Shown piece by piece: positions 4,282-63,108 of a stretch of 64,000 nucleotides of DNA. The position numbers were made by a program, and so were the translations under genes. Origin of the DNA: Prevotella melaninogenica (GTDB lineage: Bacteria > Bacteroidota > Bacteroidia > Bacteroidales > Bacteroidaceae); NCBI RefSeq assembly GCF_003609775.1, contig NZ_AP018049.1:744001-808000 (forward strand), given 5' to 3'. Below the pieces are notes generated by a model. It worked only from the letters and a program-made list of their open reading frames with translations. It was not told where the DNA came from and made no database searches. Each line of letters begins with the position of its first letter. Positions within the stretch are counted from its first letter, which is position 1.

Positions 4282-7200
4282 TTATGCCTCCTCGCTCCAG
4301 TCTTCCTGAGTCTTGCGAACATAGCTCTTGTAACGGAGCTTAGCCATATCCTCACAAGCCTTGAAGAGCTCCTCACCCTCATTTGGATAAGCCTTGAGGA
4401 CAGAGAGGAAACGAACCTCACTATGAAGGAAGTCTTGGAACTTATCCCATTCTGGTTCCTTAGAATCGAGTGAGAATGGGTTCTTACCCTCTTCAGCCAA
4501 CAGTGGGTTGTAACGCCAGAGCTGCCAGTAACCACAAGCAACAGCATTTGCTTCCTGAGCCTGGCTACGACCCATACCACCCTTCACCTTCAAACCATGG
4601 TTGATACATGGAGAGTAAGCGATGATGAGTGATGGTCCAGGATATGCCTCAGCCTCACGGATAGCCTTCAATGTCTGTGCATTGTCAGCACCCATAGCAA
4701 TCTGAGCTACGTAAACATAACCGTATGTAGTTGCCATCAAACCGAGGTCCTTCTTGCGGATACGCTTACCCTTAGCTGCGAACTGAGCAATAGCACCGAG
4801 TGGAGTAGCCTTAGAACTCTGACCACCAGTGTTAGAGTAAACCTCAGTATCGAGAACCAAGATGTTAACGTCCTCACCAGAAGCGATAACGTGGTCGAGA
4901 CCACCATAACCGATATCGTATGAAGCACCGTCACCACCGATAATCCACTGGCTACGCTTAACGAGATAGTGGTCGAGAGTCTTCAGTTCTGCGCATACAG
5001 GGCAACCCTTCTCTGCACCAGCAGCGATCAATGGCTTCAACTTAGCAGCAGCAACCTTTGATGCATCAGCATCCTCCATGTTGTCGAGCCACTCCTGTGC
5101 AGCCTCCTTGAACTCAGCAGGTGTATGGTCGTTAGCCATAGATTCGTTAAGAAGTACAGCGATACGCTCGCGCATCTTCTTGTTACCCATAGCCATACCC
5201 ATACCAAACTCACAGAAGTCCTCGAACAGTGAGTTATTGAATGCAGGACCATGACCATCCTCGTTAGTTGTGTAAGGAGTTGATGGTACTGAAGCTGAGT
5301 AAATTGAAGAACAACCAGTAGCGTTTGCAATCATCTCACGATCACCGAAGAGCTGTGAAACGAGCTTAACGTATGGAGTCTCACCACAACCAGCACAAGC
5401 ACCAGAGAACTCGAATAATGGCTGAGCAAACTGAGAGTTCTTAGCGTTAGACTTGATATCAACGAGATGCTGCTTAGTCTTAACGTTCTTAACGAGGTAG
5501 TCCCAGTTAGCTGCACGGTGGTTAGCCTCTTCCTCGCCAGCAACGAACTGTGTCATAGAGAGAGCCTTGTTACCCTTCTTACCTGGACAAACATCAGCAC
5601 AGTTGCTACAACCTGTACAGTCGAGAACTGATACCTCAATGCGGAACTGCATTCCCTTGAGCTGCTTTGGAGCGATGATGTCGAGAGTCTCCTCATTGAA
5701 GTTAGCCTTCTCTGCCTCATCCAATACGAATGGACGGATACAAGCGTGAGGACAAACGTATGAACACTTGTTACACTGGATACAGTTCTCTGCATCCCAC
5801 TTTGGAACGAAGGTAGCAACACCGCGCTTGTCGAAAGCTGCTGTACCTACTGACCAAGTACCGTCAACAGTACCATGATTAACGAAGTCAGAAACCTTCA
5901 AGAGGTCACCTGCCTGTGCATTCATTGGGCGAACAAGCTCCTTAACGAATGCTGGTGCATCGTCTGCTTTAGCATCGTCATCAGAGAGGTTAGCCCAAGC
6001 TGGATCAACAGCCAACTGCTTGTACTCGTTACCACGGTCAACAGCAGCAAAGTTCTTGTCTACAACGTCCTGACCCTTCTTACTGTAACTCTTAACGATA
6101 AACTTCTTCATCTGGTCAACTGCAAGGTCGAGAGGAATAACCTCTGTAATACGGAAGAATGCAGACTGGAGGATAGTATTGGTACGGTTACCGAGGCCAA
6201 TCTCTTGTGCAATCTTTGTAGCGTTGATATAGTAAACGCTGATATTGTTCTTAGCGAAGTAGCGCTTTACCTTATTAGGAATGAAGTGTACAAGCTCCTC
6301 ACCATCAAAGATTGTGTTCAACAAGAATGTACCGTTCTTACGCAAACCACGTGTAACGTCGTACATGTTCAAGTAAGCCTGAACGTGACAAGCCACGAAG
6401 TTTGGAGTATTTACCTGATAAGTAGAACGGATTGGATTATCACCGAAACGGAGGTGAGAACATGTGAAACCACCAGACTTCTTAGAGTCGTATGAGAAGT
6501 AAGCCTGACAGTACTTATTGGTGTTGTCACCGATAATCTTTACTGAGTTCTTGTTAGCACCAACGGTACCGTCAGCACCAAGACCGTAGAACTTAGCCTC
6601 GTAAGTACTTTCACCACCCAATGGAATCTCCTCAACCTCTGGGAGAGAAGTGAAGGTAACGTCATCAACGATACCTACTGTGAAGTGGTTCTTTGGCTCT
6701 GGCAACTCGAGGTTGTCATAAACAGCGATAATCTTAGCTGGTGTTGTATCTGAAGAACCGAGACCATAACGACCACCAACGATCAATGGCTTGTTCTCAA
6801 CATCGTAGAATGCGCTCTTAACATCGAGGTACAATGGCTCACCCTCTGCACCTGGCTCCTTAGTACGGTCAAGAACAGCGATGCGCTTAACAGACTTTGG
6901 AACTGCAGCGAGCAAGTGCTTAACAGAGAATGGACGATAAAGGTGTACAGCAACCATACCAACCTTCTTACCCTGAGACATCAAGTAGTCGATAGCTTCA
7001 CGAGCTGCCTCAGTAGCTGAACCCATCAAGATGATGATGTTCTCTGCATCCTTAGCACCATAGTAATCGAAGAGATGATACTCACGACCAGTAATCTTTG
7101 ATACTTCGCCGAGATAGTGCTCAACAACCTCTGCTACATTCTCGTATGCACTATTAGATGCCTCACGATGTGTGAAGAATGTCTCAGGGTTCTCAGCTGT

Positions 7201-10844: not shown

Positions 10845-10934
10845 GTTTTAGAGTTTGTACGAGGAGGTCTTTCCGTGAATGGTGTAAAACCTTCGTTTGT
10901 TAATATATATTTACATTAGTTGTGGCAAAGATAC

Positions 10935-10974
10935 AAAAAATCACGGATACAACCTAATGTATCCGTGATTTTTT
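10935..10974 (-). terminator. Bidirectional terminator hairpin after the porin gene
   Basis: An 11-base perfect inverted repeat (TCACGGATACA / TGTATCCGTGA, loop of six) is flanked by A6 on the left and T6 on the right, so it can terminate either strand. It lies 15 bases past the porin stop. Its distal edge runs straight into the TATCTTTG box of the small membrane-protein gene. Confidence 0.9.
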
Positions 10975-10988
10975 AATTTTAATTTATT

Positions 10989-12128
10989 TTAGAATCGGAA
11001 ACTTAATTCTAAGTCAAACATTGAGTAGTTTGGTTTTCCGTTAGGACCATTCATTGAGCGATCGTGAACATGAGAATAAATACCACTTAATGCAAGGGTT
11101 TTGGTGAATTCATAATCAAGGCCTATGTCGTACTGTGTACGCTGTTTTGCTGCACCATCAGATGGCTGATACATATCGTAACGTGCCTTTGCGTGTAGCT
11201 TATTAGGAATAATAGGCGCAATCACGAGTGCATAAACACCTTGAGCCTTGTCGCCATCTGCGCTGAGATTACAGTCAGTTGCAGCAGCTGCGTCTGTATT
11301 GCTAAGTGACTTTGCAAAGGCGTAACCTGTTGAATGAACATACTCAGAACGAATTGTCCAGTCTTTTACTTTGTACTCTGCTGATATGGCATAGCGACGC
11401 TGTTGTAAGCTGCGAACACCATTTATAGTTGCACCTGCGTCATCAAGCCATGAACCCTTACGTGCATAAGAACCAGTCCATCCAAACCAACCTAAGCGCA
11501 TACCTTCTACAGGCATAATCCAAATACCACCAATGATATTCTTCTGTTGGTCAGCATCTCTTACGTTGATACCCTGACCATTAAATACACCTACTTGATA
11601 GTGAACAAGATTTCTACCTGCATTGGTTTTTAGGAAATCACCTTGTATCTGTACACCGATATCACGGCCATTAGAAGGGTGTGCACCTGCTCGATCAGAG
11701 AAGCTTGCCAACTTCAGAACACTTTGAGCTACACTCATAAAGCCTTGGTCGATAGGGTGGATAGGATTGTCAAAGGTAAATGGGTTCTTGAACTGACCTG
11801 CCTTAATACGGAAAAAATCATACTTCTGCCATTCAATGAAGAGGTCAAGTAAACGTGGCGATGCGCCCAGTGTCGATGTGTTACCATTGAATTGTAGCTG
11901 TGCTTTCCAAGCCCAGTCATTAAGAATACGGCCATCAAGTGAAACACGACCTAAGCGGAGGTTGAACGTGTTTGACTTATTGTTGTTCATACCATTGTAT
12001 TGGTACTGAGCAATACCGAAGCCAGACAGTTTTACGTTATTAATCCACTTGGGTACTTCCTGTGCTTCTTGTGCTTTGCCGAGGAGTGAGCATAGCATCA
12101 TTGCTGATAGGATAATTGTTTTTCTCAT
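10989..12128 (-). CDS. Outer-membrane porin, phosphate-selective porin O/P-like
   Basis: A 379-residue outer-membrane beta-barrel protein. The N-terminus is a signal peptide (KTIILSAMMLCSLLGKAQ). The rest is alternating hydrophobic/polar strands with features of the Porin_O_P family, for example LRLGRVSLDGRILNDWAWKAQLQF and FRIKAGQFKNPFTFDNP near residues 55-120, and it ends in aromatic FDLELSFRF, as barrel proteins do. It probably admits anions or small solutes; true phosphate selectivity cannot be told from sequence. It is monocistronic, with a perfect promoter upstream and a strong hairpin terminator downstream. Confidence 0.85.
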   Translation of the reverse strand: MRKTIILSAMMLCSLLGKAQEAQEVPKWINNVKLSGFGIAQYQYNGMNNNKSNTFNLRLGRVSLDGRILNDWAWKAQLQFNGNTSTLGASPRLLDLFIEWQKYDFFRIKAGQFKNPFTFDNPIHPIDQGFMSVAQSVLKLASFSDRAGAHPSNGRDIGVQIQGDFLKTNAGRNLVHYQVGVFNGQGINVRDADQQKNIIGGIWIMPVEGMRLGWFGWTGSYARKGSWLDDAGATINGVRSLQQRRYAISAEYKVKDWTIRSEYVHSTGYAFAKSLSNTDAAAATDCNLSADGDKAQGVYALVIAPIIPNKLHAKARYDMYQPSDGAAKQRTQYDIGLDYEFTKTLALSGIYSHVHDRSMNGPNGKPNYSMFDLELSFRF

Positions 12129-44512: not shown

Positions 44513-46024
44513 ATGAGTTGGATATTAACTGTATTTGTAATTATCCCCGTCCTGATGCTTTTCGCCCTTTGGGTTGCGAAGAACGATAATCAGGTACGCG
44601 GCGTGATGGTAGCCGGCTCTACGGCACTTTTGATAGGTGCAATCTGGCTGACTGTTTATTTCGTTCAGCAGCGCAACGCAGGTAATCATGATGCGATGCT
44701 GTTGACAAACTCCGTAATGTGGTTTAAGCCTCTAAATATCGCCTTCTCTGTAGGTGTAGATGGTATCTCTGTTGTAATGATTTTACTTTCTGCAATCATC
44801 GTCTTCACAGGTACTTTTGCCAGCTGGCAGCTTGAACCAATGAAGAAGGAGTACTTCCTTTGGTTTGTACTCTTGTCTTCAGGTGTATTTGGCTTCTTTA
44901 TCTCTACGGATATGTTCACCATGTTCATGTTCTACGAGGTAGCTCTTATTCCTATGTACCTCCTCATCGGTGTATGGGGTACTGGTCCAAAGGAGTACTC
45001 AGCAATGAAGCTTACCTTGATGTTGATGGGTGGTTCTGCTCTCTTGGTACTCGGTATTCTTGGTATCTACTACTTCAGTGGTGCTACCACAATGGATGTA
45101 ATCGAGTTGGCACGTTTACACGCTATGCCAAAGGATGTACAGAACATTTTCTTCCCATTGGTGTTCATTGGTTTCGGTGTACTTGGTGCATTGTTCCCAT
45201 TCCACACATGGTCTCCTGACGGTCATGCCTCAGCCCCTACAGCCGTATCAATGCTCCACGCTGGTGTATTGATGAAGCTTGGTGGTTATGGTTGCTTGCG
45301 TATCGCAATGTTCCTTATGCCTGACGCATTGGAGATGTGGGCACCAATCTTCCTCGTGTTGACAACTATCTCTGTAGTATATGGTGCACTTTCAGCTTGT
45401 GTACAGACCGACTTGAAGTATATCAATGCATACTCTTCAGTTTCACACTGTGGTATGGTACTCTTCGCTTTGGTTATGACTACACAGACAGCTATCACAG
45501 GTGCAATCCTACAGATGCTTTCACACGGTTTGATGACAGCCTTGTTCTTTGCATGTATCGGTATGATTTATCACCGTGCAGGAACACGTGATGTTCGTTA
45601 CCTTGGAGGTCTTATGAAGGTTATCCCATTCTTGGCTGTATCTTATGTGGTAGCAGGTCTTGCTAACCTTGGTTTGCCAGGTTTCTCAGGTTTCGTTGCT
45701 GAGATGACAATCTTCGTAGGTTCATTCGAGAATGCAGGAACATTCCATCGTGTAGCAACAATCATTGCTTGTACAGCAATTGTAATTACAGCTGTTTACA
45801 TCTTACGAGTGGTAGGAAAGATTCTCTTCCAGAAAATTCCAAATAAGAAGTTCTATGAGTTACATGATGCAACATGGGACGAGCGATTCGCTATTGGCTG
45901 CTTAATCTTCTGTGTTGCAGGTTTAGGTCTCTGCCCACTCTTCTTTGAGAATATGATTATGGATGCGGTTCATCCTATCTTTGATCACATCTTTACATAT
46001 ATACCAAATTTGGGTAATCTTTAA
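44513..46024 (+). CDS. nuoM: NADH-quinone oxidoreductase subunit M
   Basis: A 503-residue antiporter-like subunit with about fourteen membrane helices. Key pieces are FMFYEVALIPMYLLIGVWG (the conserved Glu near residue 141), FPFHTWSPDGHASAPTAVSMLHAGVLMKLGGYG (in parts), and SVSHCGMVLFAL. It forms the second proton channel. It begins four bases after nuoL and ends 12 bases before nuoN. Confidence 0.95.
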   Translation: MSWILTVFVIIPVLMLFALWVAKNDNQVRGVMVAGSTALLIGAIWLTVYFVQQRNAGNHDAMLLTNSVMWFKPLNIAFSVGVDGISVVMILLSAIIVFTGTFASWQLEPMKKEYFLWFVLLSSGVFGFFISTDMFTMFMFYEVALIPMYLLIGVWGTGPKEYSAMKLTLMLMGGSALLVLGILGIYYFSGATTMDVIELARLHAMPKDVQNIFFPLVFIGFGVLGALFPFHTWSPDGHASAPTAVSMLHAGVLMKLGGYGCLRIAMFLMPDALEMWAPIFLVLTTISVVYGALSACVQTDLKYINAYSSVSHCGMVLFALVMTTQTAITGAILQMLSHGLMTALFFACIGMIYHRAGTRDVRYLGGLMKVIPFLAVSYVVAGLANLGLPGFSGFVAEMTIFVGSFENAGTFHRVATIIACTAIVITAVYILRVVGKILFQKIPNKKFYELHDATWDERFAIGCLIFCVAGLGLCPLFFENMIMDAVHPIFDHIFTYIPNLGNL

Positions 46025-47819: not shown

Positions 47820-49110
47820 CTGTCCGATAAAACCTCTACATGCTGCAATACTCTCTCTCAATCCAGCTGAAATGCACATGATTAGTTCTAATTTCAAATT
47901 CCAAGCCCCCCTAGAATAATGACAACTCTTCTGGTGGGGCTTTTACCTGGGTAATCAATCTATCCCAGTCTCTATGTGGCTGCTCAAAGAATCTTTGTAT
48001 TGAGACATAACTCATAAGTAGAATTCTTATCATTGTTGCCAAGCCTGAGAAACTCCAAGGTCTCTTTATTTTGTCCTTCATTAGTGTTATAAGCAGGTTG
48101 GCTATAAGCGTAATCCATATTTGTATTTTTATAGCATTCGCACTCTCTCCATAGAAGTATCTTAGAGGGAAATTCTGTTTTATTTGCTTAAATAAGGTTT
48201 CTATTTGCCATCGTTTCTTATAGATAGCAATAATATCTTCTGTCGACATCTGAGAATCATTGGTCAGCAGAGATATTAATCTGATTTTCCCTTTCTTAGT
48301 CTTATCCTGATATGTAATTTTTCTTGCTTTATGGTAGATATCTTTTTCCTTTGTATGCTTATGAAAGATAATGGTTTCTACATGTACAGCTCCATAATCT
48401 GTTGTCATCTCATAATCTGTATCAGCAATTCTTTCAAAGCTAAGATTACTTTTCATCTTAGTTACATATATAACGCCTCTTTGCGTGAGTTCTGAGAACT
48501 TTTCATAGTTGATATAGGCCCTGTCAAAAGCAATCAGTTCCTCATTGGCGTATCGTTTTGGAATAAGTGCAAATTGGTCATGACTGGCTGCGGATGTGAA
48601 CTTGATATCGCTTGGAACATTCTCATTGGCGAATATCTCTGTATGTACTTTTATTCCACCCTTTTTCTTACCAGTTTTGGGGTTACGTCCTACACCTTTA
48701 AAGACCAAGTTAGAAAACAGACTTATTGTCGTAGAATCTATTATCTTTAGATTCTTCAGCCATTTAGGCTGTCCACAATTTCGGCTGTCCGAGTAAAGCT
48801 CATGGCGGTATTTCTCATATAAGTTCATATAGATTGAACCGAATATCTCGGAATCTCGACGTTTGTTTGCATCTGACAAGGTACTTCGATAAGGAAAATG
48901 CTTTAAACTAAGATGATTAAAGCGATTAACATTAGCAAAGAGAGAGGCCTTTATCTCACGCAGAGAGTCTAAACGCATCATTACTGCATAAAGCATGACG
49001 ACAAGATGATGCCATGCGTCAAACTTCTTTATATAGTGTTCACCTCCCTGAGCTTGGCTCAGAGATGCAAGTTCCAAAACGAAGTGCAATAAAAGAGTGT
49101 CCCTCTCCGA
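47820..49110 (-). mobile_element. IS4-family element remnant at the left edge of the island
   Basis: The span covers the transposase plus about 90 bases on its 3' side, where TGTCCGATAAAACC may be the terminal sequence. The 5' end is fused directly to the winged-helix pseudogene, and no matching inverted terminus or target duplication can be identified, so the limits are approximate. Confidence 0.55.
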
Positions 49111-49125
49111 GCAGATGTACAACAC
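47911..49125 (-). CDS. IS4-family transposase (N-terminus probably truncated)
   Basis: A 404-residue DDE transposase of the IS4 family found in Bacteroidetes. The catalytic residues are visible: Asp in KIIDSTTISLFSN, Asp in LIAFDRAYINY, and Glu in the Y-(2)-R-(3)-E-(6)-K signature YKKRWQIETLFKQIKQNF. The frame opens with a GTG codon inside what appears to be the flanking winged-helix pseudogene (MLYICSERD does not look like a transposase start). Real transposase similarity begins at about LLHFVLELASLSQ, so the natural first residues are missing. The element is therefore probably a remnant that can no longer move by itself. Neighbours on the right are a broken winged-helix gene and the lipid operon. 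Confidence 0.85.
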   Translation of the reverse strand: MLYICSERDTLLLHFVLELASLSQAQGGEHYIKKFDAWHHLVVMLYAVMMRLDSLREIKASLFANVNRFNHLSLKHFPYRSTLSDANKRRDSEIFGSIYMNLYEKYRHELYSDSRNCGQPKWLKNLKIIDSTTISLFSNLVFKGVGRNPKTGKKKGGIKVHTEIFANENVPSDIKFTSAASHDQFALIPKRYANEELIAFDRAYINYEKFSELTQRGVIYVTKMKSNLSFERIADTDYEMTTDYGAVHVETIIFHKHTKEKDIYHKARKITYQDKTKKGKIRLISLLTNDSQMSTEDIIAIYKKRWQIETLFKQIKQNFPLRYFYGESANAIKIQIWITLIANLLITLMKDKIKRPWSFSGLATMIRILLMSYVSIQRFFEQPHRDWDRLITQVKAPPEELSLF

Positions 49126-49834
49126 CGCGAACCAGCATATCTATGACATGTTGAGCGGCGGAAAGAGCCTTGCCAAACAGCAAATTACAGAACGAATGGC
49201 TGAAAAAGGCTTACCTTCGGACACTGTTTTTATGAACCTTTTTTGGAGAATACCGAATGCGAGGCACTCATTTGCAGCGGCCCTGAAGTGGGAAACGCAC
49301 ATACCTACATGCTCTTAGACGAGCGAGTAGCCCCTATACCCTTACCCACAAAAGACGAGGCGTTGAGCATATTGGCACGCAATTACTTTAGAAGTCATGC
49401 CCCAGCAACGTTAGACGACTTCTGTTGGTGATCGGGATTGTCAGTGAAAGAGGCGCGATTGGGCGTTGAAATTATTGAAAAAGAGTTTCAAAAGGTCGTT
49501 TTCAACGATAAAACTTATCTGCTGCACGAATCTTCTTCAATCGGCATCAAAGAGAAAGAAAGATTTATCTTTCTGTCTGCTTACGACGAATACATCATTG
49601 CCTACAAGTATCGCGGCGATGTTTTGCAAGCTTCTCACAACAGCAAAGCATTTACTAACGGTGTTTTCTTTCCCCTTATCCTACAAAATGGTAGGGCGAC
49701 GGATAATTGGAAAATGACTTTGACACGCCGAAACATCGCCATCAACACATCTTACTTTGATAACAACGCCCCCAACAAATTTGTCTGCGGCTGAAGAAAA
49801 AGCCCGTTTGCAACTTATTTCGTTCCATAACTAA
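49112..49834 (+). pseudogene. Winged-helix DNA-binding domain protein, 5'-truncated and frameshifted
   Basis: Pieces of one protein lie in different frames. MYNTANQHIYDMLSGGKSLAK and ITERMAEKGLPSD come first (from 49112); LENTECEALICSGPEVG and LARNYFRSHAPATLDDFCW follow after a shift in a run of T near 49240. A TGA replaces an expected Trp codon (CW-stop-SGLSVKEARLG) at 49429-49431. A further shift in a C-run near 49765 would let the frame end at 49832-49834 with SAAEEKARLQLISFHN. The fragments resemble the HTH_42/AlkZ-like winged-helix family, several members of which are DNA glycosylases. The N-terminal half is missing, replaced by the IS4 remnant. Its 3' end overlaps the hydrolase-methyltransferase gene tail to tail. 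Confidence 0.8.
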
Positions 49835-51512
49835 CGGTAAAGATACCGAAGTTATCGAGTTTCATGCCATATTTGGTTAAGCCATAAAAGGCGAAAAGAC
49901 TGTCTAGTTCGCGTTGCGAACGCCGCCGCATAATCCAATCACGCTCTTGATGGTTGTTTAATACGAAAGCAATCATTTTTAACTGAGGGTGCCAAGGCTG
50001 ACCAGTATAGACCAAAAAGCCGCCCGGTTGCAGTGCGGATAAAGCACCAGAGATGGCCTTACAAACAAGCTCGTTATCACCAAACAGCTCAAATATACCA
50101 GAAATAATAACAATATTAGGTTCAAAATTCAGCTGTCGATATGAGTCTTTATTAAAACAATCAAGACGAGTAAACCGTATATTTTGAAGTCCTTGCTGTT
50201 GTATCTGTGCCTCGCCGAAAGCAATATTTGCTTCCGAAAAGTCGTTTATAACCACTTCTATTTCCGGAAACTTGCGTTTGATGTCGAACAAATAATTACC
50301 CGTCCCACCGGCAATATCGAGTATTTTCACGGGTTCATTGCGCTGTTTAAGCGTTTCAATACGCTCTTCTACGGTTGCGATGAGATGCTCTCGTCGTATT
50401 CTTACTCCTCGCCAACCAATGGCGTTAAGATAGCCTTTGTCTATCCATCGCCCAATTGGTCCGCATCCCTGTGCTTGGTTGCGATAAACATAATCCAGAG
50501 ACATACCCGAATCAAAACCATATTTTAGTCCCACACGCATTCCTTTACTAAGAAATCCCAAGTGATGGAGCATCCATTTCTGCATCCGAAAGCCCCAACG
50601 TTCAATTCGGGGAAGCATATTCAAAGTCATTTTGTTATACTCGTCAACTGTAAATTTATCAGGCATACAGGTCGCCGGCGGTTGTTCGAGTGAGAAACAG
50701 CGGTTAATAAACTCAGCAATAGGATTGTAAACCTGCTCACGTTGCGTTTCAAACAATAGCCCGTGATAAAACCCTTTAAGCTTGACAAACCGCTTTTGGG
50801 TGGAGCTGATGTCAACAAAAAACCGCTTTTGCATATCGTCTTTCACCACGTAATCTTTACCGGCAGAGAGCAATAGCGTCGGTATGGTTATGGCAGCAGC
50901 ATCTTCTACTATACGCTTTCCTGCTTTCAGCAAATCCAAGAGATAGTGCGCATCAATTTCTCTAGTAATTAGCGGGTCGGTGTCGTACGCCTTTTGCTGT
51001 TCCACATCATGTGTCAACACCTTCGATTTTACATAACTGGGCACTGTTAGGTGTTTGAAGAGCCGCGCTGCCAACGCAATTCCCGTCTTTGCAAAAGGCA
51101 CATATAACTTAATGGTAAACGCAGGAGCAAGAAGTGCCATACCAGCAATACGGGGCGCAAAGTCGTGACACCACGCCGAAACAATTACACCTGCAATGCT
51201 GTTAGCCACCACAAAGATGTCTCTCTCAACAATTCCATACTGCTCATAGAGGTATTTTACGAAAGCATCCAAGTCGCGTACATAGTCCATAAAATGGGGC
51301 GAAACGGATTGCGAAGTATGCCCCAGTCCACGCATATCAAAGCCAAAGATGTTGAAATGCACAAATTGCTCGTTCTCGGCAAAGGCTTGCAAACGTCCCG
51401 AATGTTCGTGCCCGCGATGCAATATCACAATGGTTTTCTGCGAAGGGTTGTAATTCCACACCCTATAAAAAATATCTGCGTTGTCAAAACTCTTAAATGT
51501 TCCTGTTTCCAT
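49815..51512 (-). CDS. Bifunctional alpha/beta hydrolase and SAM methyltransferase (YnbC-like)
   Basis: A 565-residue two-domain protein. Residues 1-270 form an alpha/beta hydrolase like lysophospholipases: HRGHEHSGRLQAFAE, FDMRGLGHT, a nucleophile segment VVANSIAGVIVSAW (Ser in an A-x-S-x-A variant of GxSxG), and a late Asp/His pair (AGKDYVV, KGFYHGLLFE). Residues 290-565 contain a class I methyltransferase with ILDIAGGTGNYLFD and a GFLVYTGQPWHPQ motif. The layout and size match E. coli YnbC, whose function is unknown. It is the last gene of the five-gene operon, with a 20-base overlap with the phosphatase gene. It probably acts on a lipid: the hydrolase may trim an acyl chain and the methyltransferase modify the head group; this is inference. 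Confidence 0.85.
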   Translation of the reverse strand: METGTFKSFDNADIFYRVWNYNPSQKTIVILHRGHEHSGRLQAFAENEQFVHFNIFGFDMRGLGHTSQSVSPHFMDYVRDLDAFVKYLYEQYGIVERDIFVVANSIAGVIVSAWCHDFAPRIAGMALLAPAFTIKLYVPFAKTGIALAARLFKHLTVPSYVKSKVLTHDVEQQKAYDTDPLITREIDAHYLLDLLKAGKRIVEDAAAITIPTLLLSAGKDYVVKDDMQKRFFVDISSTQKRFVKLKGFYHGLLFETQREQVYNPIAEFINRCFSLEQPPATCMPDKFTVDEYNKMTLNMLPRIERWGFRMQKWMLHHLGFLSKGMRVGLKYGFDSGMSLDYVYRNQAQGCGPIGRWIDKGYLNAIGWRGVRIRREHLIATVEERIETLKQRNEPVKILDIAGGTGNYLFDIKRKFPEIEVVINDFSEANIAFGEAQIQQQGLQNIRFTRLDCFNKDSYRQLNFEPNIVIISGIFELFGDNELVCKAISGALSALQPGGFLVYTGQPWHPQLKMIAFVLNNHQERDWIMRRRSQRELDSLFAFYGLTKYGMKLDNFGIFTVSYGTK

Positions 51513-52785
51513 TTTTATCTTTGGTTAAATTTTTACTTATCATTAACTGCACCGTTTCACCTATTCGGCGACTCCGAAAACGGCCCATTGCACAATGAAT
51601 ATATAGCTTTCGAGGCACATCTTCGGCTTTCATCTTCTCTAAAACCGTATTTACAATACGCTCCTCACAGGCTTTGGGGATAGTGGCAATATCCAAAAGC
51701 GGAAAGCAATGGTAATTTGCCGATGTGCGAAAGTAGGCGTTTTCGGGTAATTCGGCTGAAAGGTCGAACACCGAAACCTCTCCCAACATGGCGAATTTCC
51801 GAGCAGAACGGCATGAAAGCAAGCCTCCAACGAAGATGTTGGGTGCAATTTCTACAGGTGCCTGACGAGAAAACAACCACAATATGCGATACACTGCGAT
51901 ATAGGGAAAATAGAAAATATAACGCAAAAAACCGATGCAACCGTGGTCGTCTTTAAGAAAATGTCGATTAGAGCGATAATAAGCACGGCCCAATAAAAGC
52001 AAGACGAGTATGCCCCACAATAAAAAAATACTTCCTAAAACAGAATGTTCGATGGCAAACAATAACGCCGTCAACCCCACAGCGGCAACAAAAAAGTAAA
52101 CCGTTGCTATTTGTTGGTTGCGCTTTTTACGGTAAGGAAACATCCATAACGTCAGAAAACCTGCCATCAAACCAGTAGTAATATCGATGAAATGGTGCTG
52201 ATACACCAAAAGGGTAGACAGCATTAACAACACCAACCACATTCTCAGTAAGTTTCTGAACCTGCTATTTCGCACCCCACTCCAAAAGATGCAGGCATAA
52301 CCTATATGTAAAGACGGGACCTGATTAAAAGGTGTATCGTACGTATTGATGAAAGAAAACAAGATATGGGCTGTTTCCGGACGTACAAAACTTTGTTTTA
52401 ACGGAAAAATAATAAAACAAATTCCCGATAAAACGGTTATAAAAACGATGCGTTTACTTAATGTCGACAGCTGCCGAAAAGTATTGCAGAGGAAGAAAAC
52501 CCATATAAAAAACACCACACTACTGCTATAAAAATAGATGGCAAAAGGTACAAACGGTATGGCTTTTTCAAACGAAAAGCAAAGCGAAGACACCTCTTTA
52601 AGCGATGCCGCATAGCTTGCAGCAAAAGTATAAACAGCATAGAATACACCCCAACAAATAACAAGGGCGATGTATTTGCTTACTTGCAAGCATTTGTTAT
52701 CTATACCGCAACGCTGCATCAAACCGTTTGGCAAGGGCCGCTTACACGTCCATACAGTTTTGTTGTTTATTTGGGAATGCTCCAT
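51493..52785 (-). CDS. PAP2 / dual-specificity phosphatase fusion (YnbD-like)
   Basis: A 430-residue membrane protein, the same length as E. coli YnbD. The N-terminal part has six or more membrane helices and PAP2 motifs: LKQSFVRPE, PSLHIGYACIFW and STLLVYQHHFIDITTGLMAGF (about residues 150-220). The C-terminal cytosolic part is a dual-specificity protein/lipid phosphatase with the P-loop HCAMGRFRS (C-x5-R). Together this suggests dephosphorylation of a lipid phosphate on both sides of the membrane or in two steps, as PGP phosphatases do. I chose ATG at 52785 (MEHSQINNK), not the TTG at 52821. It overlaps the SDR gene by 19 bases and the downstream gene by 20. Confidence 0.87.
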   Translation of the reverse strand: MEHSQINNKTVWTCKRPLPNGLMQRCGIDNKCLQVSKYIALVICWGVFYAVYTFAASYAASLKEVSSLCFSFEKAIPFVPFAIYFYSSSVVFFIWVFFLCNTFRQLSTLSKRIVFITVLSGICFIIFPLKQSFVRPETAHILFSFINTYDTPFNQVPSLHIGYACIFWSGVRNSRFRNLLRMWLVLLMLSTLLVYQHHFIDITTGLMAGFLTLWMFPYRKKRNQQIATVYFFVAAVGLTALLFAIEHSVLGSIFLLWGILVLLLLGRAYYRSNRHFLKDDHGCIGFLRYIFYFPYIAVYRILWLFSRQAPVEIAPNIFVGGLLSCRSARKFAMLGEVSVFDLSAELPENAYFRTSANYHCFPLLDIATIPKACEERIVNTVLEKMKAEDVPRKLYIHCAMGRFRSRRIGETVQLMISKNLTKDKNGNRNI

Positions 52786-53522
52786 AATGTCTTTCGGTGC
52801 ATAAAAGCCGATAACAAACAAGTGGGTAAAAGCGAAAGAAAAGCGATGGAAAGGCGCATTTTTGGCGGAAACACCACCTGTTCTTTGCGCTGCGCTATGG
52901 CCTTTGTCATTGTTTCAACAGCCCGATTTAAGGGCATGCAGAACGGACATTTGGAAAGGTCATTACGGTATATCTCTCTCAATCGTGGCGTGTCTATGTA
53001 GCCCGGAACAAGTGTTGTAACCGTTATTTGATAGTCGGCAAAACTTCGGCGATAAGCATCGGCTATCTGTATCAATGCTCTTTTGCACTTGGCATATACG
53101 CTTGCGCACGGATAATGCAACAATCCTGCCACCGAAGCAATCACTACCAAATGTCCGCCGGATGCATTCATTGCTTCTCGTGCCACTTCCATCGCATTCA
53201 ATGCACCCGCGATATTAACCTTCAACATTTGTGAAGTCTGCTCAAAATCCACTTCTTCAGTAACGCCGTTACGGTAATATCCAGCAGCAACAATCATCAT
53301 GTCCAACCCCTTATCGGCACAAAACACTTCTACGGCAACGGTTAATGCGTCCTTATCACACACATCCAGCTGGTATGCAAGCAACAGTTTGTTAACCTCA
53401 TCACTCCTGTCTATTCGTGCCGTATTTCGTCCGCACACCCCCACCCGATGGCCTTTGGCAGCATAAAACCGCGCCAAGGCCAAGCCGATACCCGATGTTC
53501 CGCCCGTAATAAAGATGTTCAT
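52767..53522 (-). CDS. Short-chain dehydrogenase/reductase with C-terminal hydrophobic tail
   Basis: A 251-residue NAD(P)-dependent SDR. The cofactor loop TGGTSGIGLALARFY, the ASVAGLL strand and catalytic YAKCK are all present; a PGYIDTPRL segment follows. The last 40 residues (LSIAFLSLLPTCLLSAFMHRK) are hydrophobic, as in SDRs that act on membrane lipids such as 3-ketosphinganine or long-chain ketones; the substrate is inferred from this and the context. Its ATG overlaps the patatin stop (ATGA), and its end overlaps the phosphatase gene. Confidence 0.87.
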   Translation of the reverse strand: MNIFITGGTSGIGLALARFYAAKGHRVGVCGRNTARIDRSDEVNKLLLAYQLDVCDKDALTVAVEVFCADKGLDMMIVAAGYYRNGVTEEVDFEQTSQMLKVNIAGALNAMEVAREAMNASGGHLVVIASVAGLLHYPCASVYAKCKRALIQIADAYRRSFADYQITVTTLVPGYIDTPRLREIYRNDLSKCPFCMPLNRAVETMTKAIAQRKEQVVFPPKMRLSIAFLSLLPTCLLSAFMHRKTLWSIPK

Positions 53523-54559
53523 ACCTGTTTGTTTTTAAAATGTTGGGCAACCCTATCGTATCCGTATTGCCATTGAAAGTTCATATCTTTTACAAACTGG
53601 GCATAGGTTTTGGGCAGTTTCAGTTCTACCTGGAGCTTCAGAAGATTGATGTTTTTTTCGATGTAATGGCCCGAAAGTGCCTGGTTCATGTCGGCCGTGT
53701 CTACCCAATAGTTCACCGAATGCGTCATCACTTCTTGTAATCGGCGGTTTCCACTATATCCAAATACGGCTCTAATAAGTGCCTCGTCGATGGTGCCAAA
53801 CCCTTTTTTCTTCTCAAAGATAATTGTTTCGCCAAGTTGTTCGGCCAGTTCTATGGGCATCAAATCAATAATTCCGCCCGCAAAATAGGCACCTTTGTAA
53901 TGCACGGGCTGAACGTAGAACATATCCGAAACAGATATTCGGGTGGCAATGGGTAAGGGAACATCTTGAAACAGCTCAACTTGCGAGTCGATGGCACTAC
54001 CCTCATAGCTTTTAAAATTGCAGTTAACAGCCGGCAAATCGATGTTTCTAGCTGTCTCGGCATCGGTAAAAAGCACCTTCCGATAAAGTTTTCTTCCGTT
54101 TCTTTCTTTACCGATGTCAGCCCTGTCAAACAACAATCGGGCACCTACTACGATGGTGGGAAGGGTTGGTCGAACAGCCAACGAGGGCAAAAGCGGGCGT
54201 ATGTCGGTGGGCATGTCTACGATAAATTTATCGAAAATATTTTCTATATAAGGAGCATAGAATGTGTTTCGCACCTTGCGCTGGCAATAGACACCTATCT
54301 TATACAGCATTTTGAAACGTGTCATTCGGGTGTTTTGCACAAAGCGATACAGCTCTTCCGACTGTATAAAGGCCTTTCGCTGCTCGTCGGTAGCAAACGA
54401 GTTGATGATGTTGGCAGCGATACTGCCACCGCAAGCGGCAATCAGCAGGTCGGGCTTTACACCATAATGTTGCATCGCCGCATACATGCCGAGATACAAA
54501 GCATAACGTGTACCACCGCCAGAAAAAACCGCAACCGTTGGATAAGGTTTCTTTTTCAT
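53519..54559 (-). CDS. Patatin-like phospholipase
   Basis: A 346-residue patatin-family acyl hydrolase. The oxyanion loop SGGGTRYALYLGMYAAM and the nucleophile region ACGGSIAANIINSFAT (Ser in G-x-S-x-A) lie in the first 60 residues. The region expected to bear the catalytic Asp (DGG/DGA) reads KGAYFAGGIIDLMPIELAE, with Ala where Asp is usual; the following Asp in GGIID might substitute, or activity may be altered. There is no signal peptide, so it acts in the cytosol or on the inner membrane face. It lies 27 bases after the phosphatidyltransferase gene and overlaps the SDR gene by four bases. Confidence 0.85.
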   Translation of the reverse strand: MKKKPYPTVAVFSGGGTRYALYLGMYAAMQHYGVKPDLLIAACGGSIAANIINSFATDEQRKAFIQSEELYRFVQNTRMTRFKMLYKIGVYCQRKVRNTFYAPYIENIFDKFIVDMPTDIRPLLPSLAVRPTLPTIVVGARLLFDRADIGKERNGRKLYRKVLFTDAETARNIDLPAVNCNFKSYEGSAIDSQVELFQDVPLPIATRISVSDMFYVQPVHYKGAYFAGGIIDLMPIELAEQLGETIIFEKKKGFGTIDEALIRAVFGYSGNRRLQEVMTHSVNYWVDTADMNQALSGHYIEKNINLLKLQVELKLPKTYAQFVKDMNFQWQYGYDRVAQHFKNKQV

Positions 54560-54586
54560 ACTCCACTGCTTATCAATACCATCGGT

Positions 54587-55213
54587 TTACTCAGGCATTT
54601 GCGAATTCCTGGTTACTTTTAACGTCTTCTTTATCCTAATCCACGTGCTGAGTACAAGCAACAAATCGATAACCCCAAAGATGTAAACGGAATATCCTGA
54701 AAGGTTTATACCAAACAAACAGACCACCCCGTAGAGGCCGAGAACGAAAGCACGGTCGCTCTTGCCCATCGGACCATCATACCGTCGTTCTGCCGACAGC
54801 ACCTTTCCCATCACTCCTGCGTATTCATTAATAATGCTGAGGGCAATGAAAGCCACAATAAAATAAAGACTTTCGGGATGATACTTCAACAGCGGAAAAT
54901 AAATAATGGTGTCCGAAACGACATCACCCACTTCGTTTAACAGCTCTCCCTTTCGGGTTATTTGATTGTAACGACGAGCCATCATGCCGTCTAAGGCATT
55001 CAGGGCCATACGTATCAGCAGTCCCACAGGCAGGCAAAGGTAGAGCCATGTACCCACATCGCCCGCAAACCAAAACAAAATGCCGATGACAAGTGAGAGG
55101 ACACAAGCCCACAAGGTGATTTGGTTGGCAGTAACTTTTGCACGATGCAACAACTCTAAAATAGGCGTTAACACCCGTTGAAACTGCGGTTTGATGGAAT
55201 AGACAGATATCAT
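54587..55213 (-). CDS. CDP-alcohol phosphatidyltransferase (YnbA-like)
   Basis: A 208-residue inner-membrane protein with about six helices. The CDP-alcohol phosphotransferase signature is recognisable but altered: N-x2-DG-x2-AR-x8-G-x3-N-x3-D (NALDGMMARRYNQITRKG, then ELLNEVGDVVSD), with Asn at the first and third of the four usual Asp positions. Family members transfer a phosphatidyl group from CDP-diacylglycerol to an alcohol such as glycerol 3-phosphate or inositol phosphate. E. coli YnbA is of similar size and context. It is first in the operon. No clean promoter is seen upstream; the IS1380 remnant begins within about 60-160 bases and may have supplied one. Confidence 0.87.
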   Translation of the reverse strand: MISVYSIKPQFQRVLTPILELLHRAKVTANQITLWACVLSLVIGILFWFAGDVGTWLYLCLPVGLLIRMALNALDGMMARRYNQITRKGELLNEVGDVVSDTIIYFPLLKYHPESLYFIVAFIALSIINEYAGVMGKVLSAERRYDGPMGKSDRAFVLGLYGVVCLFGINLSGYSVYIFGVIDLLLVLSTWIRIKKTLKVTRNSQMPE

Positions 55214-55269
55214 AAGTACTTTGTTTTACATGAATATTCTTAATTCCGCAACACTATTATAAATTAAAC

Positions 55270-56290
55270 TTTTTAAGTACCAGAGCAACAAAAAGTTGCT
55301 CAGGATTTTGCCATGTCAGAGTTTTCACTTATCTTAGTGTTGCAAAAAAAAAACAAGAGAATCCGACGATGGACATGGCAAAGATACAAATTAAATCTGA
55401 GAGACTCACTCCTTTTGGGGTGTTATTTTCAATCATGGAGCAATTTGACTCCACACATTATCATCTGTAATCGACTCAACCCTCGGTCTAAGGTGTAAAT
55501 CGTTCGGTTATCAGTACAGCGAAATCATTCGTTCTCTCATGAGTATCTACTTCTGTGGCGGATCATGTACCCCAGGATGTCACTACTCATTTGATGAACC
55601 ACCTCTCGCTTCATCTGACACTTCGCACTTGTAGCTCTGATACTATCCTCAGAGCGATAAAGGAGTTGACGCAAGAAAACATTTCATAGACATCAGATAT
55701 GGGCAAGACCTACGATTTCAATACGGCTGACACTCTCAATACTTTATTGCTCAATTGTATATTTGCATCTGGCTAACTGAAAGGGAGTGAGATGTATGAT
55801 GTTGATTTCGACCATCAGATCATAGAGATAGAGAAGTATGATGCAAAGCCTACATACAAGAAGTTCTTTGGTTATCGCCCTGGCGTGTCGGTTATTGGCG
55901 ATTTGATAGTCGGTATAGAGAATAGCAATGGTAACACAAATGTTCGTTTCCATCAGAAGAACACGCAGAAGAGGTTCTTTGAGAGATTTGAACAAAATGG
56001 GCTCATTATCAATCGCTTCAGAACTGATTGTGGAGCATGCTCCAAGGAAATCGTGGAGGAAATAGAAAAACACAGCAAGTCCTTCTATATCCGTGCTAAC
56101 CGCTGCAGTTCGATCTACAATGACACCTTTGCTCTCAAAGGCTGGAAAACAGAGGAAATCAATGGCATTGAGTTTGAATTGAACTCTATCCTTGTTGAGA
56201 AGTGGAAGGGTAAAGCATACCGACTTGTGATTCAAAGACAGAAACGGATGGATGGTATGCAGGATTTTTGGGAATAATACTGCGTATTGC
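55270..56290 (+). mobile_element. IS1380-family element remnant at the right edge of the island
   Basis: It includes the decayed transposase and a leader with GAGCAACaaaaaGTTGCTC (about 55283-55301), which looks like element sequence upstream of the gene. The 3' third of the element is lost. Limits are approximate. Confidence 0.6.
55375..56277 (+). pseudogene. IS1380-family transposase, frameshifted and C-terminally truncated
   Basis: From ATG at 55375 the frames read in order KIQIKSERLTPFG, SSVIDSTLGLRCKSFGYQYSE, DVTTHLMNHLSLHLTLRTCS and GKTYDFNTADTLNTLLLNC, then an open stretch with YDVDFDHQIIEIEKYDAKPTYKKF (in parts), NGNTNVRFHQKNT and FELNSILVEKWKGKAYRLVIQRQ. This is clearly the IS1380 (IS612-615-like) transposase of Bacteroides and Prevotella. 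At least two frameshifts (near 55450 and 55570) and two in-frame stops (TAG near 55690, TAA at 55774) break it, and only about 300 of roughly 430 residues remain. It cannot make a functional transposase. Confidence 0.88.
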
Positions 56291-56540
56291 CTCAAGTCAC
56301 ATTGTGGGGTAAGGGGATATTGTAGGCAGAAGTGGGTGTTTCAAATTCAAATTATCTGCAAATTCAGTAATGAGAGGATGTGTAAATGCAATAAGGATGT
56401 TGAAAGGCTTAGTTGCGGATTTGAGGTACTATAAATTTGATAATAGGTTTTGCTTTTATAGACATTGTGTTTACAACTCATAGTATCACCATATAATAAG
56501 GTATAAAGCTAAGATTTTTAGTAATAAGAATATCTGTTAA

Positions 56541-61374: not shown

Positions 61375-61437
61375 TAATCTCATAGTAACGCAAAGTAGTC
61401 ATATACCTTTATTTCAATTATTCAAATTGGCAAATAT

Positions 61438-63108
61438 ATGCTGAAACATCTATATATAAAGAACTACACATTGATTGACCAATTGGATATAGCTTTCCAC
61501 TCGGGTTTCTCGGTTATTACTGGAGAGACAGGTGCGGGAAAGAGTATTATCTTGGGTGCAATTGGTTTGCTATTAGGCAATAGGGCTGACAGCAAACAGA
61601 TAAAGCAAGGAGAGAAGAAATGTACGATTGAGGCACATTTCGACCTCTCTAACTATGGCTTTGAATCCTTCTTTGAAGAGCAGGATATAGATTTTGAACC
61701 TGAAGATACAATCGTTCGTCGTGAACTAACGGCTACAGGAAAGTCACGTGCTTTTATCAATGATACTCCAGTATCACTGCAAATGATGCGTGCATTGGGT
61801 GAGCAGCTTATTGACATTCATTCGCAGCATCAGAATCTGTTGTTACAGAAGGATGACTTCCAGTTGAATGTTGTGGATATTATTGCTCAAGACAATAAGG
61901 AATTGGCTGCTTATCGTTTGGCTTATCATGACTATAAAGAAACTGAAAGGCGTCTTTCTGATTTGAAAGAGCAGATTTCCAAAGCACAGGAAAATGAAGA
62001 ATTTATGCGTTTCCAGTTCAGTGAATTGGAGAATGCAGGCTTAATTGAAGGCAGACAAGAAGAATTGGAGCAGGAGAGTGAAACTCTCTCTCATTCAGAA
62101 GATATCAAAACTGCTTTCTACGAGACTGATAATCTGTTGAATGATGACGACAATGGAGTTATCCGAAAGCTGGGACAGAGTCTGGATAGCCTTGGAAATA
62201 TTGAGAAGGTATATCCTAAAGCGCAAGAACTTGTACAACGTTTATCATCTGTACATATAGAACTGAAAGATATTGCAGGTGAGATTGGTAGTGAAGTTGA
62301 GAATATAGACTTTGACCCTTCTTGCTTAGATAGTATAAATCAACAACTTGATTTGCTGAATACACTTGAGCAGAAGTATCACGTTTCTACAGAGAAAGAA
62401 CTCATTGAGATACGTGATAACATTGCTAATCAGCTAAAGAATATTGATAACAGTGATGAAGAACTGGATTTACTTGAGCAAGAAGTGAAGACAAAACTTA
62501 CTGCTTGTGAAAAGCAAGCAGAGAAGTTGACTGCACTCAGACGTAAGGCTACCAAGACTGTTGAAGAACAGATGAGTAGTCGACTTATACCATTGGGTAT
62601 TCCGAATGTTAGATTTAAGGTTGATTTGTCATCTAAACCATTGTCGTTGGATGGTGCAGATAAGGTTCAATTCCTTTTCTCTGCCAATACAAGTACGGCT
62701 ATGGAACCAGTTGCACAGGTGGCATCTGGTGGTGAGATTGCCCGTGTAATGTTATCGTTAAAGGCAATGGTAAGTGGGGCAGTGAAGCTGCCAACGATTA
62801 TCTTTGACGAGATTGACACGGGTGTGAGTGGTAAAATTGCTCAGAAGATGGCATTTATCATGCAGGAAATGGGTGATAACAATCGTCAAGTTATTTCCAT
62901 TACTCATCTTCCACAGATTGCAGCTTTGGGTAGCTCACACTATAAGGTTGAGAAGGAGGAAACGACAGAAGGAACGCGTAGTCACATGCGTGAGCTGACT
63001 CAAGAGCAACGTGTGAATGAAATTGCGCAGATGCTTTCGGGTGCTGATGTCTCTGATGCTGCTTTACAGAATGCTCGTGAACTATTAGATTTAAGTAAGA
63101 AGAAATAA
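61438..63108 (+). CDS. recN: DNA repair protein RecN
   Basis: A 556-residue SMC-like ATPase acting in double-strand break repair. The Walker A loop GETGAGKSIILGAIGLLLG lies near residue 29, followed by DIHSQHQNLLL. A long coiled coil (about residues 155-370) separates the halves, and the C-terminal part has ASGGEIARVMLSLKAM and Walker B IIFDEIDTGVSG, then THLPQIAALG. Length is normal. It follows the PorD-like gene by 63 bases and precedes the trypsin-fold gene by 23. Confidence 0.95.
   Translation: MLKHLYIKNYTLIDQLDIAFHSGFSVITGETGAGKSIILGAIGLLLGNRADSKQIKQGEKKCTIEAHFDLSNYGFESFFEEQDIDFEPEDTIVRRELTATGKSRAFINDTPVSLQMMRALGEQLIDIHSQHQNLLLQKDDFQLNVVDIIAQDNKELAAYRLAYHDYKETERRLSDLKEQISKAQENEEFMRFQFSELENAGLIEGRQEELEQESETLSHSEDIKTAFYETDNLLNDDDNGVIRKLGQSLDSLGNIEKVYPKAQELVQRLSSVHIELKDIAGEIGSEVENIDFDPSCLDSINQQLDLLNTLEQKYHVSTEKELIEIRDNIANQLKNIDNSDEELDLLEQEVKTKLTACEKQAEKLTALRRKATKTVEEQMSSRLIPLGIPNVRFKVDLSSKPLSLDGADKVQFLFSANTSTAMEPVAQVASGGEIARVMLSLKAMVSGAVKLPTIIFDEIDTGVSGKIAQKMAFIMQEMGDNNRQVISITHLPQIAALGSSHYKVEKEETTEGTRSHMRELTQEQRVNEIAQMLSGADVSDAALQNARELLDLSKKK

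Follow-up and report, generated by a model that had tools for sequence, protein, structure and literature searches.

The region from 49815 to 55213 of a 64,000-nucleotide stretch of the Prevotella melaninogenica genome (contig NZ_AP018049.1, positions 744,001 to 808,000; the whole stretch is called the window here) carries five genes that are a variant of ynb, an uncharacterised locus. The variant is shared with Flavobacteriaceae-type genomes, our working label for one family, and ynbB is missing from the Prevotella set. We consider it probable, at roughly 60%, that these genes form an operon dedicated to the biosynthesis of a minor, methylated phospholipid of the membrane and represent the Bacteroidota form of the ynb locus. 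The homology of the proteins, the conserved gene order, the transfer of the genes, the selection acting on them, and the residues in their active sites were all shown by the analysis.

Gene content and relation to E. coli ynb

The genes follow one another head to tail on the minus strand, from 55213 to 49815, in the order YnbA-patatin-SDR-YnbD-YnbC, where SDR denotes a short-chain dehydrogenase/reductase:

54587..55213, minus strand: YnbA-like CDP-alcohol phosphatidyltransferase, 208 aa; motif NxxDGxxAR...GxxxNExxD, in which Asn72 and Asn93 replace the first and third of the canonical Asp
53519..54559, minus strand: patatin-fold protein, 346 aa; nucleophile elbow with Cys43, intact GGGxR loop, DGG Asp absent, invariant Asp212
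52767..53522, minus strand: SDR, 251 aa; Ser/Tyr/Lys and GGTSGIG kept
51493..52785, minus strand: YnbD-like PAP2 plus dual-specificity phosphatase, 430 aa from ATG; HCAMGRFRS intact
49815..51512, minus strand: YnbC-like fusion of a monoglyceride-lipase-type hydrolase and Methyltransf_20, 565 aa; Ser105-Asp220-His250 conserved

An earlier reading of this DNA, made from the sequence only, had named five open reading frames (ORFs) of these families; all five were found on the minus strand at the coordinates listed, and their domain families were identified with Pfam and NCBIfam. The Pfam E-values were 1.6e-08 for the first protein (CDP-OH_P_transf), 2.1e-10 for the second (Patatin), and 6.7e-35 for the third (adh_short). 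The YnbC-like protein matched both Hydrolase_4 (1.9e-53) and Methyltransf_20 (7.6e-96). The PAP2 match of the fourth protein (8.2e-05, 22.8 bits) was below the Pfam cut-off, and its PAP2 motifs were kept; its phosphatase half was recognized from the NCBIfam model PRK12361 (3.8e-12, far below the cut-off), the alignment with YnbD, and a complete HCx5R motif. The hydrolase half of YnbC was closest to monoglyceride lipases, and Ser105-Asp220-His250 were kept in 120 of 120 homologues. For its methyltransferase domain, a literature search by title and abstract gave nothing on the substrate.

The stop of ynbA is separated from the patatin start by 27 bp. The patatin and SDR genes overlap by 4 bp, the SDR and PAP2 genes by 19 bp with the ATG at 52785 (the listed ORF begins at a TTG at 52821), and the PAP2 and YnbC genes by 20 bp. 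Overlaps had been taken to demand a single transcript; the spacing is compatible with one transcript but does not require it, and the five genes are probably one lipid-directed operon. There was no tRNA within the window, and no known RNA element at Rfam thresholds between window positions 46000 and 58000.

The likeness to YnbA, YnbD, and YnbC claimed in the sequence-only reading was confirmed as homology over most of their length by BLASTP against the E. coli K-12 proteins from NC_000913.3. Identity was 44% over 162 aa for YnbA (E 8e-40), 31% over 352 aa for YnbD (E 9e-48), and 40% over residues 6–565 for YnbC (E 1e-148), and the lengths here and in E. coli are similar (208 and 201 aa for YnbA, 430 and 430 for YnbD, 565 and 585 for YnbC). 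The hydrolase-methyltransferase and PAP2-phosphatase fusions and the Asn-Asn motif of YnbA are common to both loci. The order, however, is A-B-C-D in E. coli and A-patatin-SDR-D-C here, and a patatin and SDR of the Prevotella kind were not found in the 18 kb of K-12 examined. E. coli has YnbB, which is missing here, as the earlier reading had also noted: the ORFs of the locus include no YnbB, and a single CTP_transf_1-family cytidylyltransferase is encoded in the P. melaninogenica genome. No function was found for YnbA, YnbC, or YnbD in a literature search by title or abstract, with papers containing single mentions mostly unread, and searches on the gene set as a whole likewise gave nothing. 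In the portion of one such paper that was consulted (PMC13313352), ynbC is mentioned a single time, among the mutated and differentially expressed genes tabulated for a persistence strain. PMC12419801 does not concern the gene set.

A known anti-phage defense system was rejected on the basis of a PADLOC scan, in which four of the five proteins had no match and the methyltransferase region of YnbC had a partial match to mad2 (36.3 bits, E 7.1e-10).

Active sites of the patatin-fold protein and YnbA

The patatin fold is present in the 346-aa protein, and its active-site positions were counted in the best 120 of 150 significant homologues. Cys43 replaces the nucleophile Ser of GxSxG, and Cys was found in all 118 of the 120 homologues that covered the site. 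The catalytic Asp of the DGG motif was present in 0 of 120, with Ala (103), Met (9), Thr (4), Leu (2), or Ser (2) in its place, and the alignment with PlpD has a gap where the catalytic Asp stands. Asp212 is invariant among the homologues and lies elsewhere than the catalytic Asp. Ser46, just after CGG, could be taken for the nucleophile, but of 118 homologues 81 have Ala at this position and 34 have Ser. Patatin-like phospholipases such as PlpD and plant patatin have a Ser nucleophile and a catalytic Asp, whereas the Prevotella protein has Cys, no such Asp, and the invariant Asp212. Since the homologues examined have other residues at both positions of the dyad, an ordinary phospholipase A was rejected as the identity of this protein, and acyl trimming by the patatin, which had been proposed as one step of the pathway, was not supported. 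Judged from the alignments, a plain phospholipase role is doubtful. A literature search found no description of a patatin with a Cys nucleophile.

YnbA does not match the canonical DxxDGxxAR...GxxxDxxxD motif. Asn72 and Asn93 take the places of the first and third Asp, a substitution shared by 120 of 120 close homologues and by 13 of 13 more diverse ones. By both sequence and fold, its nearest solved relative was a phosphatidylinositol-phosphate synthase, with PgsA1 nearest by sequence; the fold matches came from Foldseek, and VIA-align re-examined these matches only. The best NCBIfam match was archaetidylinositol phosphate synthase, at 71.9 bits against a cut-off of 180. The phosphatidylinositol-phosphate synthases (M. 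tuberculosis PgsA1, R. salmoninarum PIPS, and B. thetaiotaomicron BT_1523) share the fold of YnbA but keep the four Asp of the motif, the first and third of which are Asn in YnbA. For BT_1523, the part of the source consulted gives all four, as DX2DGX2AR...GX3DX3D (PMC9246714).

Three CDP-alcohol enzymes, YnbA included, are encoded in the genome. One of the others lies within ~3 kb of the inositol-phosphate synthase gene, and the remaining one is beside a protein that reads like phosphatidylserine decarboxylase; only one of these two keeps the four Asp in the exact spacing. Since another CDP-alcohol enzyme sits close to the inositol-phosphate synthase, YnbA was rejected as the phosphatidylinositol enzyme of this genome, and the presence of two others indicates that YnbA is a third, acquired enzyme. 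According to the sections of PMC9246714 that were seen, almost every Bacteroides or Prevotella species with the inositol synthase has one of two inositol-lipid clusters alongside.

As far as residues can predict, a Cys-for-Ser clade of patatins and an Asn-Asn clade of CDP-alcohol phosphatidyltransferases, with active sites unlike those of their namesakes, are what is new here.

Recurrence, transfer, and selection

Related loci were compared through their ORF lists and by tblastn, with the proteins of the window and of K-12 as queries. Seven YnbC-bearing loci of the Flavobacteriaceae type were examined, six of them in one genus, whose YnbC is 83–100% identical to a protein labelled Capnocytophaga. 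Locus L042 has the six genes YnbA-YnbB-patatin-SDR-PAP2/phosphatase-YnbC, and four Capnocytophaga-like loci (L048–L051) have YnbA-YnbB-patatin-SDR-YnbC without ynbD, so that the order YnbA-YnbB-patatin-SDR-(YnbD)-YnbC is conserved in five of the seven. The Prevotella operon keeps this order minus ynbB. These loci, with the same genes in the same order, are its true counterpart, differing in the ynbB that lies between ynbA and the patatin gene there. The sequence-only reading had treated the patatin and SDR as local novelties; they are usual content of related loci, and the Prevotella peculiarity is the missing ynbB. The result that it had named as refuting, homologues that seldom occur together, was not obtained: the set recurs in these five loci and on a Moraxella plasmid, with YnbC also found alone.

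Among matched plasmid records, 8 of 30 were examined. Plasmid pNP7-2 of Moraxella osloensis carries YnbA-YnbC-patatin-SDR and, close by, genes for a cytidylyltransferase and a PAP2 protein. Alphaproteobacterial, Burkholderia, enteric-plasmid, and cyanobacterial loci (Burkholderia, Shinella, Rhizobium, an E. coli plasmid, and Pseudanabaena) share with the Prevotella operon YnbA and YnbC or its methyltransferase part, and three of the five share full-length YnbD; however, they have a cytidylyltransferase and a lysophospholipid acyltransferase of the PlsC type beside these genes, and no patatin or SDR of the Prevotella kind. In Pseudanabaena, a stand-alone methyltransferase without the hydrolase adjoins YnbA-YnbB-PlsC. 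A Kosakonia locus has a distant YnbC relative in a different context, near wecA and wecB.

Mutual exclusion was examined by tblastn over 17 loci and the window, a small sample. The five PlsC-type acyltransferases matched one another at E ≤ 1e-3 and matched no other locus. The window patatin and SDR were matched in six loci (L029, L042, and L048–L051) besides those of Prevotella and Hoylesella, and in none of the five PlsC loci; K-12, Fusobacterium vincentii, L041, and L047 have neither. Because the patatin plus SDR and the PlsC-type acyltransferase never share a tested locus, an acyltransferase is the more likely activity for the patatin, and the pattern suggests that patatin and SDR together replace the PlsC-type acyltransferase of other ynb loci. 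Of the 13 loci with both YnbA and YnbB, 9 have YnbB on the YnbA strand as the next gene downstream (L001, L026, L030, L032, L042, and L048–L051), and the two are on opposite strands in L027, L028, L029, and L033. This adjacency suggests that YnbB, described as a CdsA paralogue for the glycolipid MPIase, supplies YnbA. In L028 (11076–11513), and likewise in L027 and L033, YnbD is followed by a gene for a small protein of ~146–150 aa; the L028 protein has no Pfam match.

Co-occurrence was also gauged from the size of the longest contig given for each match. Among the best 120 of 150 significant patatin matches, at least 27 had the same contig size as one of the YnbA or YnbC matches listed; when sizes were shifted by 1–200 bases either way as a control, the mean was 0.74 and the maximum 3. 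This count is a lower bound, made among lists of 120, 120, and 118 matches.

Within Prevotella-type species, the operon is part of a larger shared block, with the following features at its borders:

49095..55237, no strand assigned: shared block, comprising the operon and the whole or C-terminal part of a convergent AlkZ-like gene; ~95–97% DNA identity, Prevotella/Hoylesella
49438..49794, plus strand: AlkZ-like DNA glycosylase gene, C-terminal piece, the gene being broken here next to the IS4 transposase
47911..49125, minus strand: IS4-family transposase adjoining the block (Pfam/NCBIfam)
55792..56274, plus strand: IS1380-family transposase remnant upstream of the operon (Pfam/NCBIfam)

A scan of genomes with exact peptide patterns, which detects close relatives only, matched Hoylesella nanceiensis, H. 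saccharolytica, H. loescheii, Prevotella conceptionensis, P. jejuni, and P. aurantiaca. With P. jejuni excluded, DNA identity to the five other species was 94.7–96.9% over ~49.1–55.24 kb, in two of them only from 49.6 kb. The loci of H. saccharolytica, P. conceptionensis, and H. loescheii are mutually syntenic past the block. Beyond the block, P. aurantiaca also has the IS1380 remnant, and H. nanceiensis has a 67% match in a gene (ORF 61399–63105) that we take to be RecN-like. The operon proteins are 96–98% identical to those of H. nanceiensis, whereas the RecN-like protein, a yardstick available for that species only, is 57% identical over 536 aa. The block was thus recently transferred among mostly distant Prevotella-type species. 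In P. jejuni (L018), compared in 500-base steps, identity was 98.6–100% at 48.5–56.5 kb, 90.0–97.2% to the left, and 84.0–88.4% to the right; this sharply bounded 8-kb identity indicates that the block with its IS4 and IS1380 DNA was replaced or moved more recently still.

The sequence-only reading had placed the operon on a mobile island. The block has indeed moved horizontally, but the ORF list and Pfam revealed no transposase or integrase inside it, and the IS4-family transposase and IS1380 remnant merely flank it. A phage- or plasmid-borne cassette was rejected: phage records held no YnbC relative, none of nine viral-contig stretches with the patterns was related, and plasmids held no DNA near-identical to the block. 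In H. nanceiensis (L015), the block is bracketed by direct repeats (4856–5267 and 10882–11411; 96% over 184 bases, weaker beyond), and with further repeat copies nearby, the block could conceivably have entered as a circle through recombination. The block edge is only ~24–32 bp upstream of ynbA, so the promoter DNA may come from the surroundings. IS1380-type DNA immediately precedes the operon in the window (55240–56430), in P. jejuni, and in P. aurantiaca. The convergent AlkZ-like gene travels with the operon; it is broken in the window (49095–49794) and intact in L016 (10679–11743, 354 aa).

The ratio of nonsynonymous to synonymous substitution (dN/dS) was 0.06–0.25 for all five genes against L015, L016, L017, L019, and L020, the last with 354 YnbC codons only. 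This indicates purifying selection and speaks for function. Values against P. jejuni (0 to 0.31) came from sequences too close to inform, and synonymous divergence from L042 was saturated in four of five genes. In P. aurantiaca (L020, 9001–10693), YnbC matches residues 1–354 only in one piece, and the copy or the draft sequence looks interrupted.

The gene set is rare and patchy. At E ≤ 1e-30, YnbC was found in 4 of the 398 other genomes searched in the window's family; the four belong to its own genus, and three of them are probably the P. jejuni, H. nanceiensis, and H. loescheii genomes of the pattern scan. It was found in 0 of 294 other genomes of the order at that threshold, and PF12147 at E ≤ 1e-20 was found in 0 of 394 others in the phylum sample. 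Weak PF12147 matches in 59 other relatives were short methyltransferase-fold stretches (best 2.4e-6). A Capnocytophaga YnbC query found 2 of 149 genomes of the Flavobacteriaceae-type family and 6 of 20 in one of its genera; a Chryseobacterium query gave 0 of 146 and 0 of 199 in two more searches at family level, which, without a positive control, proves nothing.

Proposed pathway and alternatives

In the pathway that we infer, in all its substrates, step order, and product, the Cys-patatin and SDR would make or remodel the lipid backbone in place of a PlsC-type acyltransferase. CDP-diacylglycerol would come from a dedicated YnbB in most loci and, in Prevotella, presumably from the housekeeping CdsA. 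YnbA would then move the phosphatidyl group from CDP-diacylglycerol to an alcohol, probably a phosphorylated polyol; the use of inositol phosphate by the nearest solved relatives, together with the phosphatase in the operon, suggests that the acceptor is perhaps phosphorylated. The PAP2/dual-specificity protein would take off a phosphate, and YnbC would methylate the lipid and, through its lipase half, edit an acyl chain or release it. A more specific version is tentative, and we would put it well short of an even chance: the Cys43/Asp212 patatin would be a Cys-dependent acyltransferase that, with the SDR (perhaps through acyl-dihydroxyacetone-phosphate chemistry), replaces PlsC and feeds the Asn-site YnbA, to give a previously unseen methylated phospholipid from a traded cassette.

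Several observations weigh against a methylated phospholipid as the product. Loss of the patatin Ser-Asp dyad, like Asn at two metal-binding Asp positions of YnbA, could also mean lost or different chemistry. The YnbD-like phosphatase has 34 residues after its motif, compared with 54–63 in five relatives and 56 in K-12. Four loci have no PAP2/phosphatase in the stretch examined, L041 and L047 have YnbC without other genes of the set (20 kb each, with 952 masked bases in L047), and F. vincentii has YnbC-YnbA-YnbB alone; the YnbC-alone loci and this trio indicate that not every gene is always needed. Finally, published work ties E. coli YnbB to MPIase instead (PMC6362211).

The operon might instead edit or recycle existing lipids, with lipase, patatin, and phosphatases stripping chains and phosphates and YnbA reusing CDP-diacylglycerol. 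Hydrolase-type folds do predominate, the YnbC hydrolase is nearest the monoglyceride lipases with its triad intact, and the PAP2 motifs are kept. The patatin, however, lacks both Ser and Asp in all homologues examined, and the CDP-alcohol phosphatidyltransferase, with a cytidylyltransferase and acyltransferase in the same loci elsewhere, indicates synthesis, so that we consider recycling unlikely. Published results with E. coli raise another possibility, a second route into an MPIase-like glycolipid in which YnbB and YnbA serve the formation of GlcNAc-pyrophosphate-diacylglycerol, as proposed for E. coli YnbB: in the parts of the reports consulted, YnbB overproduction raised MPIase, and ynbB deletion alone had no significant effect (PMC6362211, PMC7018664). 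This route is very unlikely here, in an operon without YnbB and a genome with one such cytidylyltransferase. In six plasmid loci, the annotation places no glycosyltransferase right next to the ynb genes; ORFs of the Flavobacteriaceae-type loci carried no annotation, and the Kosakonia locus is the one near wecA and wecB.

The fusion of lipase and methyltransferase, and the presence of YnbC alone in two of seven loci, would also fit a small methylated fatty-acid product, made when the lipase frees an acyl chain that the methyltransferase esterifies, with the remaining genes supplying the lipid. The Pseudanabaena methyltransferase, which has no hydrolase and stands beside YnbA-YnbB-PlsC, argues against this, and the literature on the domain offered no substrate in its favor; we give it slightly less credence than the MPIase route. 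The least probable alternative is that the operon is a functionless relic of transferred DNA in Prevotella, with a degenerate patatin and phosphatase. YnbB is missing, the phosphatase is shortened, the AlkZ-like neighbor is broken in the window, the operon has little promoter of its own with the block edge so near ynbA, and the P. aurantiaca YnbC is matched only to about residue 354 in one piece. The low dN/dS in every gene argues against decay, and the odd residues occur throughout the homologue sets and therefore do not reflect Prevotella decay.

The preferred explanation thus remains synthesis of a minor methylated phospholipid. The ynb genes are found in E. coli K-12 and several phyla, yet no function of YnbA, YnbC, or YnbD was found by the literature searches, and the altered active sites of two of the enzymes make the lipid product of the operon worth finding. 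Both altered clades are specific and could be tested cheaply in E. coli, which would correct the automatic annotation of the patatin as a phospholipase. Prevotella-type species with or without the near-identical cassette provide a natural presence/absence test for the lipid.

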